Below, piece after piece: positions 9,430-19,459 of a stretch of DNA of 20,572 bases. A program made the position numbers and the translations under genes. Source of the stretch: a virus. The stretch lies in IMG/VR virus record IMGVR_UViG_3300025133_000739, positions 1 through 20,572 of that record; one strand, 5' to 3'. How positions within the stretch are numbered: position 1 is the stretch's first letter; each line of letters begins with the position of its first letter. Under the pieces are notes generated by a model. The model was not told where the DNA came from. It ran no database searches and saw only the letters and a program-made list of their open reading frames with translations.

Positions 9430-10982
9430 TGACGGCACAGTTACAGCCTGTCAATCTGGTTGCCCCGGGTTTCCGTGGGCTTAACTTAGCACAGGCGGGG
9501 TCTATTCTGTCCCCGGAGTTTGCCACACAGGCGGAGAATTGCCGCGTAGACAAGGCAGGTAGGCTAGCTGCGCGTAAAGGCTACAGTGACATAACCAGCA
9601 CAGACATTACTGCCAACGCCCCGGTAAAGACCCTGTTTGACTACAGACAGAAAGACGGCACTGTTGAGCTTATCGTGGCGTGGGATGGTGGAATAGCCAA
9701 CGACGCTGCTGACCCCGAGGGTAACGATATCTCCGGAGCGGTCACTGACGCAGATGGACGCTGGTGGTTCCAGAACTTTAACGACAACGTGTATGGATTT
9801 CAGGACGGCCTGACTCCGGTTGAGTACACGGGTGCTGGAAACTTCACAGCCATTACCGCCGTCTCAGGCACACTGCCTACGAGCACGCGAGGGGTGGCCC
9901 TAGCAGCCTTTGGTAGGCTGTGGGTACTGGACACTGACGGGCAGACTATAAAGTACAGTGCTCTCCTAGATCCCACACGGTGGGCTACGGCTGACGGTGG
10001 AGGGAGCATTGACATGACCTCCGTATGGGCGGAGGGAATGGACGTTGTGACGGCCATCTCCGCGTATAACGGCCAGCTCGTGGTATTTGGTGAGCGGCAC
10101 ATTATCTTCTGGAGTGATGGGCAGGGTGGTCAGCTCGGTATTCAGCCTAATGACATGTACGTTAACGACGTTGTTACGGGCACAGGATGTCTTACACAGT
10201 GGAGTGTGCAGTCGGTAGGTGATACTGACATGCTGTTCCTCGGACGTAACGGTGTACAGAGTATAGTACGAGTAGTTGAATCAGCCTCGAACCCAGTTAG
10301 ATCCCTATCAAAGAACGTCCGTAACGACATTCTCGATAAGGTTATCCCTCTCACAGATATTGATACTATCAGCAGTACATATAACCCACTGGATGGGTTC
10401 TACTTGCTGACGATCCCCGGGGATACCACGTTCTGCTTTGACCAGAGATACCCATTCCGAGATGAGGAGGGGGATCTACTGAACATTATAACTACGTGGA
10501 GTCTTGCTCCCGTCGCGTGGCTGACCCGCGAAGAGACCTTTGATCTGTATCTCGGGGATACGTTTGGTGTTGGAACATACCGCACTAACTCTCTGGATGG
10601 TACGGAGACCTTCAGGTTTGTCTACCAGTCCCCATGGCTGCAGCTTGGTGAGCAGTTTGCCGACAGGCTTAAGCTACTCAAGAGAATTGGGTCAATCCTT
10701 TTCGTAAACAATGACACAGAAATTGTTTACAGATGGGAAGTGGACTTCGACGTTGGATCACTCCGCAGTCGCTCAGTCAGCGTAGATGCTGACGCTACCT
10801 CCGAGTGGGGGCTAGGCGAGTGGGCAGAAGATGAGTGGTCTGGTGGACTTAGCCTACGTATTATTAAACTGCCAGCACGTCAGACTGGACAATACTTCCG
10901 CCTCGGAGTAGAGGCTGATATATCTGGAGAGTTTGCTATACAGCAGCTTGAACTATTTACTAAAATCGGAAGACTTGCATAA
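9429..10982 (+). CDS. Tail nozzle / tail tubular protein B-like
   Basis: The product has 517 residues, beta-rich throughout. The opening segment contains F-R-G-L-N, then a stretch ending in R-x-A-A-R-K-G-Y, typical of podoviral nozzle proteins (T7 gp12/P22 gp10 roles) whose sequence begins with a list of gene-product strands before a propeller-like body. Repeated W/F-G-D/Y turns support a beta-propeller, which I infer. One-base overlaps link it to both the adaptor and fibre genes. The nozzle would close the tail tube until ejection. Confidence 0.75.
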   Translation: MTAQLQPVNLVAPGFRGLNLAQAGSILSPEFATQAENCRVDKAGRLAARKGYSDITSTDITANAPVKTLFDYRQKDGTVELIVAWDGGIANDAADPEGNDISGAVTDADGRWWFQNFNDNVYGFQDGLTPVEYTGAGNFTAITAVSGTLPTSTRGVALAAFGRLWVLDTDGQTIKYSALLDPTRWATADGGGSIDMTSVWAEGMDVVTAISAYNGQLVVFGERHIIFWSDGQGGQLGIQPNDMYVNDVVTGTGCLTQWSVQSVGDTDMLFLGRNGVQSIVRVVESASNPVRSLSKNVRNDILDKVIPLTDIDTISSTYNPLDGFYLLTIPGDTTFCFDQRYPFRDEEGDLLNIITTWSLAPVAWLTREETFDLYLGDTFGVGTYRTNSLDGTETFRFVYQSPWLQLGEQFADRLKLLKRIGSILFVNNDTEIVYRWEVDFDVGSLRSRSVSVDADATSEWGLGEWAEDEWSGGLSLRIIKLPARQTGQYFRLGVEADISGEFAIQQLELFTKIGRLA

Positions 10983-12631
10983 TGCCAACATATACACAAA
11001 CTACGTTATTCGGCCCTAAGGATGGACTGACAACAGGCAACCCGCTCAAGCTCATCCGAGGGACTGAGATTGATACGGAGTTCAACGCCATCGCGGTAGC
11101 CATCGGCAACGCGCAGGATGACATCGGGCTGAACATTGCTAATGGGATCTGCCAGCTAGATTCTGGTGCCCTTGTGCTACCTGCACAGCTACCTCTTGCC
11201 ACAACCTCCGCCATCGGTGCACTTGAGACGGCCACGTCCGGGGAAGCGGATGCGGGTACTGCTAACGACAAGATTATGACTCCGCAGAAGCTGAAGCAGG
11301 ATTCGTTTCTTGCTGGGTGGGACGCCACGCTTGGCGCAGTCACAGCTACTACACTGGCAGGTACCCTGACGGGTAACGTCACTGGTAATCTTACTGGTAA
11401 CGTAACCGGGGATGTAGTTGGCGGCCTGACAGGTAACGTGATCGGTAACGTAACTGGTGACTTACTCGGTGACGTTGTAGCGGGGACAACGGTTCTGGAT
11501 ACTACGGGGGTAAATGTCGGGGCCAGTAATATTGTAATGGCCTCACATGTATGCAGTATTGCGACTGCAACAACTACCATTGCTTCCTCTGTCCTCTCCC
11601 TATCAGGTTCATCAGTATTCATACTGCAGGGTGAGGTGGGTCTGGTCGCAGATAACACCGCATCTGATGTAGACGCCCTTACCGTCAAGGACTTAGGAGC
11701 CGGTAGCGCATCTCGCCTAACAATCACACAGCCTATGGGCACCGACGACATCGAGTTTCGCGACGGTGCTGGTAATCCAGTTATCACCATTGATAACGAT
11801 GGGGGTTCTGAAGTAGTAGATCTTGCACAGATTCCCACAATTGCTGGGGCAGCGTTCCCCGGGGTGGACGGATACCTTAAGGGGCTGCAGCTAGCGAATA
11901 ACCTGACAACACCACTGCTGGAGATTGACGTAACGGTAGGCGCGGCAGCGGACTCTACTGGGGCATCTGTCTTAGCTGGTGCTGCAGATACTAAGTCTCT
12001 TAACTCCACATGGAGTGAGGGTGGCCTAGGCGGGCGAGCTTCTGCTATATCACGCACGGCTGACACATGGTACAGATTCTTTATCATTGGTAAGGCCGAT
12101 GGTACAACAGACTACGGGTTTGATTCCGTAGCAAACGATGATGCTGCATCCCTACTGGCAGACGCCACAGGGTACACCCTGTACAGGCAGCTTGGTTGGA
12201 TTCTTACTAATGGCAGTTCCAACATCATTGCCTTCCGTCAGCAGGGGGATACATTCTTGTGGGATGTCGTTCAGAATGACTTAAGCACGACTACTACACA
12301 CACGTCTGCGTCTCTCCGCACCCTATCGGCTCCGCCTGACGCAGATAACGTGCGGGCTAACTTTGTCCTATTTGGCCTAGGGGACCAGACCCCATCCAAC
12401 ACTAGTACCAGAGTGATGGTAACTGCCACTAGGCAGACGGACACAGCCCCCTCCGGTTACGTGTCTACTCAGATAATCCGAGGGCATAACGAAACCTATC
12501 TGGAAAATGATGTACGGTATGAGCTTCCTATGGATACCTCAAGCCAGATCCGGGTTCGTTGTGAGAACACCAATTATCAGTACGCGCTGACCACATTTGG
12601 GTGGGAAGATACGCGGGGACGGTTACTTTAA
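10982..12631 (+). CDS. Tail fibre protein with xTGN repeats
   Basis: The product has 549 residues. The N-terminal ~110 residues include an A-L-E-T-A-T-x-G-E-A-x-A-G-T segment (about 80-95) common to phage fibres, probably the virion-binding part. Residues 129-165 are nine four-residue units of the form (L/V)-(T/V/I/L)-G-(N/D/G). Residues ~290-549 resemble a frequent C-terminal beta-sandwich of phage tail proteins: W-Y-R-F-F near 363 and Y-R-Q-L-G near 401 with a G-D ending near 421. It lies between nozzle and membrane-protein genes. It is likely trimeric and involved in receptor contact, which is inference. GGAAG eight bases upstream marks the start. Confidence 0.8.
   Translation: MPTYTQTTLFGPKDGLTTGNPLKLIRGTEIDTEFNAIAVAIGNAQDDIGLNIANGICQLDSGALVLPAQLPLATTSAIGALETATSGEADAGTANDKIMTPQKLKQDSFLAGWDATLGAVTATTLAGTLTGNVTGNLTGNVTGDVVGGLTGNVIGNVTGDLLGDVVAGTTVLDTTGVNVGASNIVMASHVCSIATATTTIASSVLSLSGSSVFILQGEVGLVADNTASDVDALTVKDLGAGSASRLTITQPMGTDDIEFRDGAGNPVITIDNDGGSEVVDLAQIPTIAGAAFPGVDGYLKGLQLANNLTTPLLEIDVTVGAAADSTGASVLAGAADTKSLNSTWSEGGLGGRASAISRTADTWYRFFIIGKADGTTDYGFDSVANDDAASLLADATGYTLYRQLGWILTNGSSNIIAFRQQGDTFLWDVVQNDLSTTTTHTSASLRTLSAPPDADNVRANFVLFGLGDQTPSNTSTRVMVTATRQTDTAPSGYVSTQIIRGHNETYLENDVRYELPMDTSSQIRVRCENTNYQYALTTFGWEDTRGRLL
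11366..11476 (+). repeat. Degenerate 12-base repeat coding for xTGN units
   Basis: About nine consecutive 12-base units code for LTGN/VTGN/VTGD-type tetrapeptides (fibre residues 129-165). Codons vary between units, so selection has kept the protein period rather than the DNA. Such repeats are frequent in phage fibres and may act as a rod or linker. Confidence 0.8.
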
Positions 12632-13223: not shown

Positions 13224-13445
13224 ATGACACTTAACCCTCAGCAGACTGCTGATCTGTCAGCGGCTGCATCTGCAGGGCTTGCCACAGCGACATGGATAGC
13301 CGAATTAAATGCCCTGCTACAGTTGGGCGCAACAATCGTAGCCATCGTGGCCGGTGCGGGAGCAGCATGGTGGCACATAGAAAAAGCAATTTCAGCTCGT
13401 AGGGAGAGACTACGTGGGAATGAAAGTAAGGGCCGCAGGTTATAG
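13224..13445 (+). CDS. Small one-TM protein, class II/III holin-like
   Basis: The product has 73 residues. The ATG at 13206 is rejected because AAAGGGA at 13211-13217 is the ribosome binding site for the ATG at 13224. One membrane segment (about 31-50) is preceded by a neutral N-terminus and followed by a strongly basic tail with several Arg. This resembles the short single-TM holins such as T7 gp17.5 in size and layout. It overlaps the following gene by 32 bases. It could also be an internal virion membrane protein, since it lies far from the endolysin. Confidence 0.6.
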   Translation: MTLNPQQTADLSAAASAGLATATWIAELNALLQLGATIVAIVAGAGAAWWHIEKAISARRERLRGNESKGRRL

Positions 13446-13875
13446 CGATGTAGATAGGATAGCAGATCTCGGAGACGAGTTCTGGGGGCAGACAGTTTAC
13501 GCAAAGCAGGGAGCCGTGTATCACGGCGAACAGGCGCGTAAGTTTCTTTACCAGATTATCAACAACGGCATTGTTCTTGTAGCCGAGGACGACGATGGGG
13601 TGCAGGGGTTCATACTCCTCGCTATCGTACCCATCCCATGGTGCCTCGACGCGCTGACAGCTACGGAGCTGGCATACTACGTTACCCCGGAGAAGCGTAA
13701 AGGTGGAGCGGGCATACGCCTCCTGCGGGAGGCGGAGAATGTAGCAAAAGACCGGGGCATAAAATACATAAGCATGGCTCACGTAAATAGCGTGGACCCT
13801 GCTACCCCAGAGAGTGTGTACACACGACTTGGGTATTCTAAAACAGAGACGTTTTTTAGCAAGGACTTAAAGTAA
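13414..13875 (+). CDS. GNAT-fold acetyltransferase, T7 gp13-like position
   Basis: The product has 153 residues from a GTG with AGGGAG seven bases upstream; an ATG six bases later is the alternative. GNAT features are visible: beta strands at residues ~53-57 and 65-71, a strand E-L-A-Y-Y-V at 85-90, and R95-x-x-G98-x-G100, the acetyl-CoA pyrophosphate-binding motif, followed by a helix. T7 gp13 is an internal virion assembly protein with an acyltransferase-like fold, and this gene occupies the same place directly before three internal proteins. Whether it is enzymatically active or structural is not known; the intact motif favours cofactor binding. Confidence 0.8.
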   Translation: MGMKVRAAGYSDVDRIADLGDEFWGQTVYAKQGAVYHGEQARKFLYQIINNGIVLVAEDDDGVQGFILLAIVPIPWCLDALTATELAYYVTPEKRKGGAGIRLLREAENVAKDRGIKYISMAHVNSVDPATPESVYTRLGYSKTETFFSKDLK

Positions 13876-16987: not shown

Positions 16988-18258
16988 TGGCAGAGATGAA
17001 GGTATATGTTGACGGTGTTCCTTTTACTGTGGATGCGGAAGCGACCCCGGAAGAAGTGACTGCTGTCCTTGAGCAGCGAGTTGCGGAAGACCCGAGTCTT
17101 ATTGACAAACGGCGTGAAGCCCTTGGTCTCGATGAGGACCAGTTCACACACTTTGTAGAACAGAACAAGCTACACCTTGCTCGCGCTGCGGAGTTTGAGC
17201 AGCAGGCAGAGAAGTACAAGAACAGCGTACCGGAACTCTCTACACCAGAGAAGTTCTTCGTGGGTGCTGGGCAGACATTCTCCAGCCTCTTCAACGGGGC
17301 ACAGCAGCTGTTCACTGGCGACGAGGGAGACAAGGTAATTGCTGCTCGTGAAGCACACGAGAAGGCTCTGTTCGCCAAGCTGGACGATCAGGGTATTGGC
17401 CCCGAGGACCTAGGGCAGATGGCTCCGGAAGTTGTGGCTTTCCTTGGTGGTGGTGGACTGGTTTCCTTCGCTGCACGAGGGGGTGCCTTAGGCGCACTGG
17501 CTCCTACGTCAGGTGATCCCGAAACGGGAACAAAGGAACGCGTACACAGCTCACTGGCTGGTGGGTTACTGTCCATGGCAGGCCCTGCGGTGGCTAAGTC
17601 CACTGGGGCTTTCTTTAACCTGAGTAAGAACGCAGGCATGGGACTGGTAAAGACGCTAGCACGCTGGGCGGGCAACAAGGGGGGTGCTCCTGCGGGAGTA
17701 GCTCAGACTGTGGGTGAAGCCATGGAGATGCAGGCTAATACAAACCCTGCCATTCGTGAGCTAGGCGAACTTGCCCTCAAGCGGACAACTGAGATTGTCC
17801 AGCGCATGAATACCTTTGGTAAGACAAACACGGTCAAGGAGCTGGTTAACGGTTCACTGACGAAGAGTGTCAGGGAGATAGGCGGGCGTAATGTTCTGGA
17901 CATGAACCAGTTCAACAGGCAGCTCATGCTACTGTCCGACTCCCAGCTAGCCAAGGGGGCAGGCAAGGACTTTGGTCGTATGCTATCCTCCTTACGGAAT
18001 ACGTTCACAGAGATTGGTAAGATCGCAGAACTGACACCTCAGCAGGCACAGGTCGTGCTGGAAGGTATCACTACGTCGCCACAGGCAGCTGTGCTGGCTA
18101 AGCAACTTGCCAAGGCAGCATCACCAGAAGCTAAGACTCTTATCCTGCAACAGATTATGAAGCTAGCCAAGTCAGCACCTCGTGCTGCTACCGCTGCAGC
18201 TGGTAAGCCTGCGGGGGAAAGTGTAGCTGAAACATTCGGTGGTGGTGGAGGGTTCTAA
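16987..18258 (+). CDS. Internal virion protein, third of three, with glycine-rich membrane segment
   Basis: The product has 423 residues. Residues 1-35 form a small beta-grasp-like module (VYVDGVPFTVDA then a helix), common at the N-termini of phage internal proteins. A glycine-rich hydrophobic region near residues 145-175 (FLGGGGLVSFAARGGALGAL) may insert into the membrane. The remainder is helical. It sits in the T7 gp16 position but lacks that protein's lytic transglycosylase motif. TAATG overlaps link it to the genes on both sides. Role inferred as part of the ejection machine. Confidence 0.65.
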   Translation: MAEMKVYVDGVPFTVDAEATPEEVTAVLEQRVAEDPSLIDKRREALGLDEDQFTHFVEQNKLHLARAAEFEQQAEKYKNSVPELSTPEKFFVGAGQTFSSLFNGAQQLFTGDEGDKVIAAREAHEKALFAKLDDQGIGPEDLGQMAPEVVAFLGGGGLVSFAARGGALGALAPTSGDPETGTKERVHSSLAGGLLSMAGPAVAKSTGAFFNLSKNAGMGLVKTLARWAGNKGGAPAGVAQTVGEAMEMQANTNPAIRELGELALKRTTEIVQRMNTFGKTNTVKELVNGSLTKSVREIGGRNVLDMNQFNRQLMLLSDSQLAKGAGKDFGRMLSSLRNTFTEIGKIAELTPQQAQVVLEGITTSPQAAVLAKQLAKAASPEAKTLILQQIMKLAKSAPRAATAAAGKPAGESVAETFGGGGGF

Positions 18259-18680
18259 TGCACGTCTGGGGGAGAGGGTCGCAGCGTGAGCTGAGCACGA
18301 TCAATCCTATCTTAGTGGAGATCGCTGAGAAAGTTTTACAGATCCGTGACATCACCGTGATACAGGGACATCGTGACGAGGGTACGCAGAACCGCTACTA
18401 CTCGCAGGGTGTATCCAAGGTCAAGTGGCCATACAGTAAACACAACACTTACCCAAGTAAGGCTCTCGACGTACAGCCTTCTCCTTACGTGGAGGAGACA
18501 TTACGCGAGGACCTAACCTACATAGCAGGATTGTTTGTAGGGGTAGGTGCACAGATGGGACATAAATTACGCTGGGGAGGAGACTGGGATCGTGATGGTG
18601 AGACAGCAGATAACGGCTTTGATGATTTGTTTCACATTGAGCTTGACGATGAATCCATACCCGAAAGCGAGACTTCCTAG
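18258..18680 (+). CDS. Endolysin, M15-type L-alanyl-D-glutamate endopeptidase
   Basis: The product has 140 residues. It cuts the peptide stem of peptidoglycan to lyse the cell. The VanY/M15C zinc-peptidase set is visible: S60-x-H62 followed by D71 (zinc ligands H62 and D71), then D123-x-x-H126 (catalytic Asp and third zinc ligand), matching the H-x-D and D-x-x-H layout of T5 endolysin. W106-G-G-D precedes an Asp-rich loop, D109-x-D111-x-D113-G-E115, possibly calcium-binding. There is no signal peptide or cell-wall-binding domain, so it needs a holin for export. The start has GGAGG six bases upstream. It is the first gene of the lysis trio. Confidence 0.92.
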   Translation: MHVWGRGSQRELSTINPILVEIAEKVLQIRDITVIQGHRDEGTQNRYYSQGVSKVKWPYSKHNTYPSKALDVQPSPYVEETLREDLTYIAGLFVGVGAQMGHKLRWGGDWDRDGETADNGFDDLFHIELDDESIPESETS

Positions 18681-18691
18681 GGAGAATAAGT

Positions 18692-19114
18692 ATGAACATA
18701 TTTGGATTGATAACGAAGGCGGTGGGTCCGGTCACAGAGTTGATCGACTCCTTGCATACCTCCGAGGAGGAGAAGCTGCAAGCAAAGGCTGCACTGCTGA
18801 AGATGGAGACATCTTTTGTGGGCCACGTACTGGCCCTAGAGAAAGCTACGCTTGAGGCACAGTCGAGTGTCATCATACAAGAAGCGAAGGCAGACAGTTG
18901 GCTGACCCGGACATGGAGACCACTATTGATGGTATGGTTCGCTGGCCTCGCTGGTGCTCACTGGATGGGACTTACTCCCGCCACGTTACCGGCAGAGACA
19001 GTCGCGGACCTATTCTTTATTGTGAAACTAGGCATAGGTGGGTACGTAGGTGGCCGCTCGGTAGAGAAGACAGTACCAGCTGTGATCGAGGCGCTGAAGA
19101 AGCGTAGCGAATAG
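18692..19114 (+). CDS. Holin, gene-transfer-agent three-TM type
   Basis: The product has 140 residues. The N-terminal half is an amphipathic helix with a charged stretch. S69-W-L-T-R-T-W-R-P77 matches the conserved motif before the first membrane helix of the GTA_holin_3TM (PF11351) family. Membrane segments lie near residues 78-95 and 105-122, and a basic tail follows. It would permeabilise the inner membrane so that the endolysin next to it reaches the wall. AGGGAG lies eight bases upstream of the start. The last base of its stop overlaps the GTG of the next gene. Confidence 0.88.
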   Translation: MNIFGLITKAVGPVTELIDSLHTSEEEKLQAKAALLKMETSFVGHVLALEKATLEAQSSVIIQEAKADSWLTRTWRPLLMVWFAGLAGAHWMGLTPATLPAETVADLFFIVKLGIGGYVGGRSVEKTVPAVIEALKKRSE

Positions 19115-19401
19115 TGGTAATACCTGAGGAATTCTATCTGGCAGGACGTAGGTGGAAGGTAATCATCGCAGACCTTAACGGGGAAGAGATGGGATTATGT
19201 GATACCAACACCTGCACGATAAAGTTGGACTCAGAGAACGAGGATGAGGAGATGGAGGATACGTTCTTCCATGAGCTTATCCACGCAGTAAAATATACTT
19301 TAGGGTGGAAGGATAATAAGAAGAATCACCATGAGTGTGATTCCCTAGGTGGGATCATAATGCAGTTTACAAATACTAAAAAGGGCCAGCTACTCTCGTA
19401 G
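19114..19401 (+). CDS. Small HExxH metalloprotease candidate
   Basis: The product has 95 residues, translated from a GTG that shares one base with the holin stop (TAGTG), so it is probably reinitiated from the lysis operon. An HELIH zinc-binding motif sits in a helix near residues 53-57, followed by a second acidic cluster (H-H-E-C-D, with a possible third ligand Glu) about 17 residues later, as in gluzincin-type peptidases. Size and layout resemble the minimal SprT-like or ImmA/IrrE-type cores. Target unknown: could process a virion protein, a host factor or aid lysis. No signal peptide. Confidence 0.75.
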   Translation: MVIPEEFYLAGRRWKVIIADLNGEEMGLCDTNTCTIKLDSENEDEEMEDTFFHELIHAVKYTLGWKDNKKNHHECDSLGGIIMQFTNTKKGQLLS

Positions 19402-19425: not shown

Positions 19426-19459
19426 GGGGCGTAACGTGTAATGGCGACGCCCCTTTTTT
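19426..19459 (+). terminator. Strong intrinsic terminator of the rightward late operon
   Basis: A perfect seven-pair GC-rich stem, GGGGCGT with ACGCCCC, encloses a 14-base loop and is followed by six T residues. The T-run serves the + strand. On the - strand the stem is present but no T-run follows, so it is only weakly able to stop the convergent operon. Confidence 0.85.

Follow-up and report, generated by a model that had tools for sequence, protein, structure and literature searches.

The last gene of the lysis operon

The stretch of viral DNA analysed here, hereafter the window, comprises positions 1 to 20,572 of IMG/VR record IMGVR_UViG_3300025133_000739 (20,572 nucleotides). Near its end lie an endolysin gene, a holin gene and a small gene encoding a zincin candidate, followed by a hairpin (Table 1). 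The TAG stop codon of the holin (19112-19114) shares its G with the GTG start codon of the zincin gene, giving a TAGTG junction with a 1-base overlap. Homologues often start at the equivalent place, where IP.. corresponds to residues 3-4, and this common N-terminal position supports the GTG start. The 95-residue zinc peptidase candidate of the preliminary description stands as an open reading frame. The hairpin downstream has a 7-bp outer stem (GGGGCGT...ACGCCCC) followed by six T, with a predicted energy of -16.4 kcal/mol and a z-score of -2.7, and the genes 3' of it lie on the opposite strand. Taken together, these features place the zincin gene at the end of the operon, as had been proposed. 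The proposal that the gene falls outside the standard holin-endolysin-spanin set likewise holds; what ends this lysis operon is a conserved zinc-peptidase candidate.

Table 1. Features at the end of the late/lysis operon, in window coordinates.
Feature	Position	Strand	Basis
M15-type peptidase endolysin	18258..18680	+	phrog_465 E 2.3e-24; PF13539 only under cut-off
Holin, GTA_holin_3TM family	18692..19114	+	PF11351 45.0 bits (cut-off 24.8); phrog_3427 E 3e-31
95-aa minimal zincin candidate (HELIH, phrog_1233)	19114..19401	+	ORF; phrog_1233 E 2.5e-13; AlphaFold2 pLDDT 87.7, pTM 0.81
HELIH, putative zinc-binding/catalytic motif (H53, E54, H57; residues 53-57)	19270..19284	+	Relatives' alignment
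H72, candidate third zinc ligand	19327..19329	+	Relatives' alignment; ligand role inferred
Intrinsic terminator of late/lysis operon	19426..19459	+	Sequence; predicted fold

A second IMG/VR contig (42,656 bases) also contains this region, differing from the window at 1 of 7,313 bases; it represents the same virus and is thus not independent evidence. Among the gene-like open reading frames of at least 50 aa in this longer record, the zincin gene is the sole one with an HExxH motif. Its G+C content by codon position (48/29/55%) is lower than that of the flanking genes.

Family membership, zinc site and predicted fold

The window protein matches the profile of phrog_1233 over residues 3-85 of its 95 residues. 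In PHROGs v4 this is an unnamed, function-unknown family of HExxH phage proteins of about 100 aa. By sequence comparison the window protein is a remote yet clear member: it shares with the family its size, the HExxH motif, residues G27, I36, T50 and A58 and the position of its start, and differs in having H72 where most relatives have Glu and in adjoining a holin gene. In a Pfam search it came close to two entries, both under cut-off (SprT-like PF10263, 25.1 vs 25.6 bits; DUF6782, 23.0 vs 27), and gave no match to PF06114 (Peptidase_M78/IrrE) at E <= 5.

Relatives had to be reached in steps. In single-sequence scans, the window protein recovered from IMG/VR no virus other than its own and drew no match in the GTDB set, and tblastn against 50,697 phage records returned one distant match, whose protein, used as a query, found 56 records. 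Eight named phages were examined, namely this first distant match and seven more of the 56 records. A DNA pattern scan of IMG/VR for the HExxH region yielded at least 120 stretches, and an eight-protein profile at E <= 1e-6 gave, among the matches listed, 103 loci, made up of the window, the eight named phages and 94 pattern-derived loci. All 75 aligned proteins (the window protein and those of 74 of the 94 pattern-derived loci listed) hit phrog_1233, and 27 of the 75 match PF06114 at E <= 0.01. One further candidate, L192, was left uncounted as its family match spans only 33 positions within a 205-aa frame.

The putative zinc site is conserved throughout. Residues H53, E54 and H57 are invariant in all 102 relatives among the matches listed, the motif being imposed by the DNA pattern for 94 of them. 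A motif-blind search with patterns that avoid HExxH gave 34 loci, and once the partial loci L263 and L264 were omitted, HExxH was present in 32/32 relatives examined. At alignment position 72, about 15 positions further on, 90 of these 102 listed relatives have Glu, 10 have His and 2 have some other residue; an exchange of Glu and His is expected for a third zinc ligand. The window protein thus has both elements (H53, E54, H57 and H72), and the zinc-peptidase assignment withstood the comparison that could have overturned it, the ligands being retained even where the search was blind to the motif. In one subgroup with 15 distinct DNA sequences, 40 codon variants are synonymous and 9 non-synonymous, an excess which indicates that the protein of that subgroup is under selection. 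From these patterns we infer that the window protein would bind zinc and act as a protease.

A structure prediction for the zinc site, suggested in the preliminary description, was made by AlphaFold2 with a 75-sequence alignment. It gave a confident zincin-fold model of four strands, an HExxH helix and a second helix bearing H72. On this model the window protein is a minimal zincin whose nearest folds are IrrE/PprI, CapP and Spartan. In Foldseek, the best solved structures, each with a weak E-value, were PprI with ssDNA (E 0.014) and Spartan (E 0.039), and a profile search agreed, with E 1.5e-4 for Spartan and E 4.5e-4 for IrrE. Predicted viral structures gave 18 matches at E <= 0.001; most of these are phage proteins without a name and about 100 aa long, and some carry the label SprT-like or peptidase. 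VIA-align 2 superposed the model on IrrE/PprI (3dte, Z 8.8, rmsd 4.9 over 90 residues; 8sln, Z 8.4, rmsd 2.8 over 85), CapP (7t5t, Z 7.4, rmsd 3.9 over 91) and Spartan (6mdx, Z 6.3, rmsd 3.5 over 88), Z values of 6-9 that may mirror just the arrangement common to zincins and are no proof of membership in these larger families.

Each of these comparisons brings out differences as well. The window protein shares the HExxH helix and fold of SprT-like proteins, yet it scores 0.5 bit under the Pfam cut-off and has 95 aa against the 183 residues of the solved Spartan chain. The model resembles the peptidase-domain fold of IrrE/PprI and CapP (Peptidase_M78), an arrangement common to several zincin families, whereas the PF06114 match is missing and the protein is too short to accommodate PprI's HTH and GAF-like domains. 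Selecase, abylysin and jannalysin (4qhg, 4jiu, 4jix) resemble it in being zincins with one domain and roughly 105-110 residues, at Z values near 5, but rmsd values reach 5-7 A in most rows and none of the three matched the window protein in phmmer or profile searches. Generic zincin rows (astacin, clostridial collagenase, neurotoxin light chains, anthrax lethal factor) have only the motif or fold in common with it and were set aside. So was the sole phmmer match against the PDB below E 0.05, an ESCO1 acetyltransferase chain (E 0.011) that is no peptidase; the nine other matches of the window protein all had E >= 0.24.

Genomic position of the family and its relation to lysis

The position of the phrog_1233 gene varies between phages. 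In the named phages, relatives adjoin the gene for the terminase small subunit, lie near a repressor gene, are flanked by minor head and scaffold genes, or occur among nucleotide-metabolism genes. Two loci come from podoviruses that, judging by their virion genes, are related to the window virus. In one (L150), the zincin gene overlaps the start of TerL by 4 nt, and TerL and portal are 39% and 37% identical to those of the window; a scan with a relative of this zincin added just that record itself. In the other (L115), the gene follows a tail-fibre-like open reading frame and overlaps a 94-aa one, with a major capsid protein 44% and a portal 35% identical to the window's. The gap before TerL in the window itself holds two other short reading frames, which do not encode HExxH and do not represent a zincin in that place.

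A wider survey took the nearest same-strand open reading frame on either side of the gene at 95 loci among the matches listed. An upstream neighbor was found for 82 and a downstream neighbor for 85, of which 84 were scanned; the window's own downstream side, which abuts opposite-strand genes, was left out. The TerL family phrog_2 accounts for 12/82 upstream and 8/84 downstream neighbors, against 3/94 random genes of the same loci, while metallophosphoesterases of phrog_221 occur seven times upstream and three times downstream and an ERCC4-type nuclease three times upstream. These counts cover the 25 commonest families, so that lysis matches with a single member could go uncounted. The surveyed loci are not independent: at 50% identity they fall into 43 clusters including the window's (94 loci forming the other 42). 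Across these clusters, packaging, head and nuclease/phosphoesterase genes are frequent neighbors.

The preliminary description had also suggested that the protease belongs to the lysis machinery or replaces a missing lysis function. Eighty loci with an M15 endolysin like that of the window were inspected, one of which is the same virus and some of which end at contig ends; the family gene adjoins the endolysin in 0/79 of the others. One M15 locus (L090) has a weak family match (E 1.3e-5), which lies about 2.3 kb off on the opposite strand. Another, L020, whose M15 endolysin is the closest relative (51% identical to the window's), carries a different HExxH protein (HEVSH, 211 aa, L020:5916-6551, + strand) about 0.5 kb downstream of the endolysin. 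The family gene is likewise found in 0/10 other loci with a related holin (eight of 18 named records and two IMG/VR loci). No membrane segment is predicted in the window protein, the highest 19-aa hydropathy being 0.52, and thus it cannot be a spanin; no N-terminal signal was apparent by eye. Among the literature matches listed, no paper reports that phage lysis cassettes contain a comparable small HExxH protein. One parallel is a phage-derived metalloprotease tied to lysin sensitivity in Listeria (PMC8235301), which differs in being a secreted metzincin with a TIMP-like inhibitor partner; the likeness is one of description.

Adjacency to a lysis gene was seen in 3/43 clusters, namely those of the window, of L111 and L201 (one cluster) and of L149. 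The second of these shows an arrangement of its own, in which one or more small hydrophobic open reading frames, a lysozyme, the zincin and a metallophosphoesterase overlap (L111:6407-8105, - strand; L201:2426-4465, + strand); the order in L201 is lysozyme, small hydrophobic open reading frame, phrog_1233 gene with an overlapping GTG, and phosphoesterase. In the third (L149:198-3293, - strand), a terminase-like open reading frame, a 168-aa open reading frame and an endolysin whose N-terminal stretch is hydrophobic precede an overlapping phrog_1233 gene; this endolysin is missed by the lysozyme-motif regular expression. The zincin gene overlaps the end of the endolysin in both L111 and L149. 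Three downstream matches to an 'endolysin' family (phrog_9589) are doubtful, since the one examined, in L109, fits a baseplate hub/tail lysozyme far better.

If 2 lysis genes per about 55 genes are assumed, the chance of at least three lysis-adjacent clusters among 43 is about 0.2, and binomial P values range from 0.12 to 0.42 under three assumed rates, so that 3/43 is near a rough chance expectation. The comparison with phage lysis loci thus revealed no conserved association with holin or endolysin. The reading of the gene as a lysis component rests on one position, and in a family without constant position it is unsupported. That it adjoins the holin gene is probably a coincidence and not the sign of a new lysis device.

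Likely role and competing interpretations

The interpretation we favor, as a rather likely one, is that the product is a small zinc peptidase of phrog_1233, cytosolic and with a single domain, rather than a dedicated lysis protein. Its gene would be a mobile accessory one that by chance took the last place in the late/lysis operon, and the likeliest substrate of the peptidase would be a DNA-bound or regulatory protein. In zincins, the Glu of the HExxH motif activates a zinc-bound water for peptide cleavage. The GTG start would couple translation to the holin stop, so that the zincin would be made late, and the HExxH/His site would then hydrolyse one specific cytosolic protein of phage or host. 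The substrate class is suggested by the resemblance of the fold to IrrE/PprI, CapP and Spartan and by the terminase, nuclease and phosphoesterase neighbors. According to PMC10904395, PprI is activated by ssDNA, as is stated for CapP, and the response of PprI requires its C-terminal GAF-like domain. PMC5127644 describes Spartan as a metalloprotease that depends on DNA, and phage Loki encodes a SprT-like protein within its replication module (PMC5313236). The domain by which PprI responds to ssDNA is missing in the window protein, which makes the DNA-linked substrate the weakest step. In addition, DNA-linked neighbors are common in phages generally, which counts against the argument for a DNA-bound substrate.

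An alternative possibility, doubtful on present evidence, is an IrrE/ImmA/CapP-like regulator protease that would inactivate a repressor of the host or of a competing phage, or a defense regulator, late in infection. This would accord with IrrE/PprI and CapP as the best solved structures and with the PF06114 matches of other family members, and PMC7824862 proposes that SprT-like peptidases of jumbo phages act on host proteins; however, the window protein shows no trace of PF06114 down to the threshold used and carries His instead of Glu at position 72, and no HTH partner gene was recognised adjoining it. That the protease processes a protein of the virion or of its morphogenesis (portal, scaffold or internal virion protein) is unlikely. 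Late location and the TerL, minor head and scaffold genes beside relatives agree with such a role, as does, by analogy, the proposal that another, uncharacterised zincin serves virion maturation in jumbo phages of group 1 (PMC7824862), but some relatives have repressor genes as neighbors or lie in early regions, and a virion role would not be anticipated there.

It is quite unlikely that the protease times or assists lysis, being produced along with the holin and determining when lysis begins by cleaving the holin itself, a product resembling an antiholin, or a protein of the inner membrane or envelope. The overlap with the holin stop, the final place in the operon, the two further clusters beside a lysozyme, in which the L201 gene directly follows a small hydrophobic open reading frame, and the fact that PHROG and Pfam profiles recognised no spanin among the three lysis-operon genes all point in that direction, but near-chance adjacency, the absence of the family gene beside M15 endolysins and related holins in other loci, and the lack of a membrane segment weigh against it. 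A broader form of the same idea, in which phrog_1233 zincins were repeatedly recruited in unrelated phages (window; L111/L201; L149) as translation-coupled holin or lysozyme partners, acting as proteolytic lysis timers on a cytosolic or inner-membrane target, seems to us a long shot. Least credible is the view that this operon-end gene is decaying or its product catalytically dead: this exact protein was found in one virus only and its G+C lies below that of the flanking genes, but the ligands are intact, the fold is predicted with confidence and the second contig of the same virus is nearly identical, so that decay would be very surprising.

The accessory zinc peptidase favored above has consequences beyond this virus. 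It gives the widespread but unnamed family phrog_1233 a likely biochemical class, that of minimal zincins with folds near those of IrrE/PprI, CapP and Spartan, and an active-site test on one member would be meaningful for many phages. The fluid position of the family also argues against inferring a lysis function from one location. Should the lysis-adjacent cases prove functional, they would add protease-controlled timing of lysis.

Three other genes of the virus deserve mention. In the late structural region of the window, positions 13414-13875 (+ strand) encode a GNAT acetyltransferase (PF00583, 35.6 bits, cut-off 20.7). Positions 10982-12631 (+ strand) encode a tail-fibre-like protein that contains a series of TGNVTG-type repeats and has no Pfam match. 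The 42.6-kb record of the same virus (L002:9366-9602, - strand) further encodes a 78-aa TatA-like protein (PF02416, 27.3 bits, cut-off 21), a phage-borne homologue of a Tat-translocase component.
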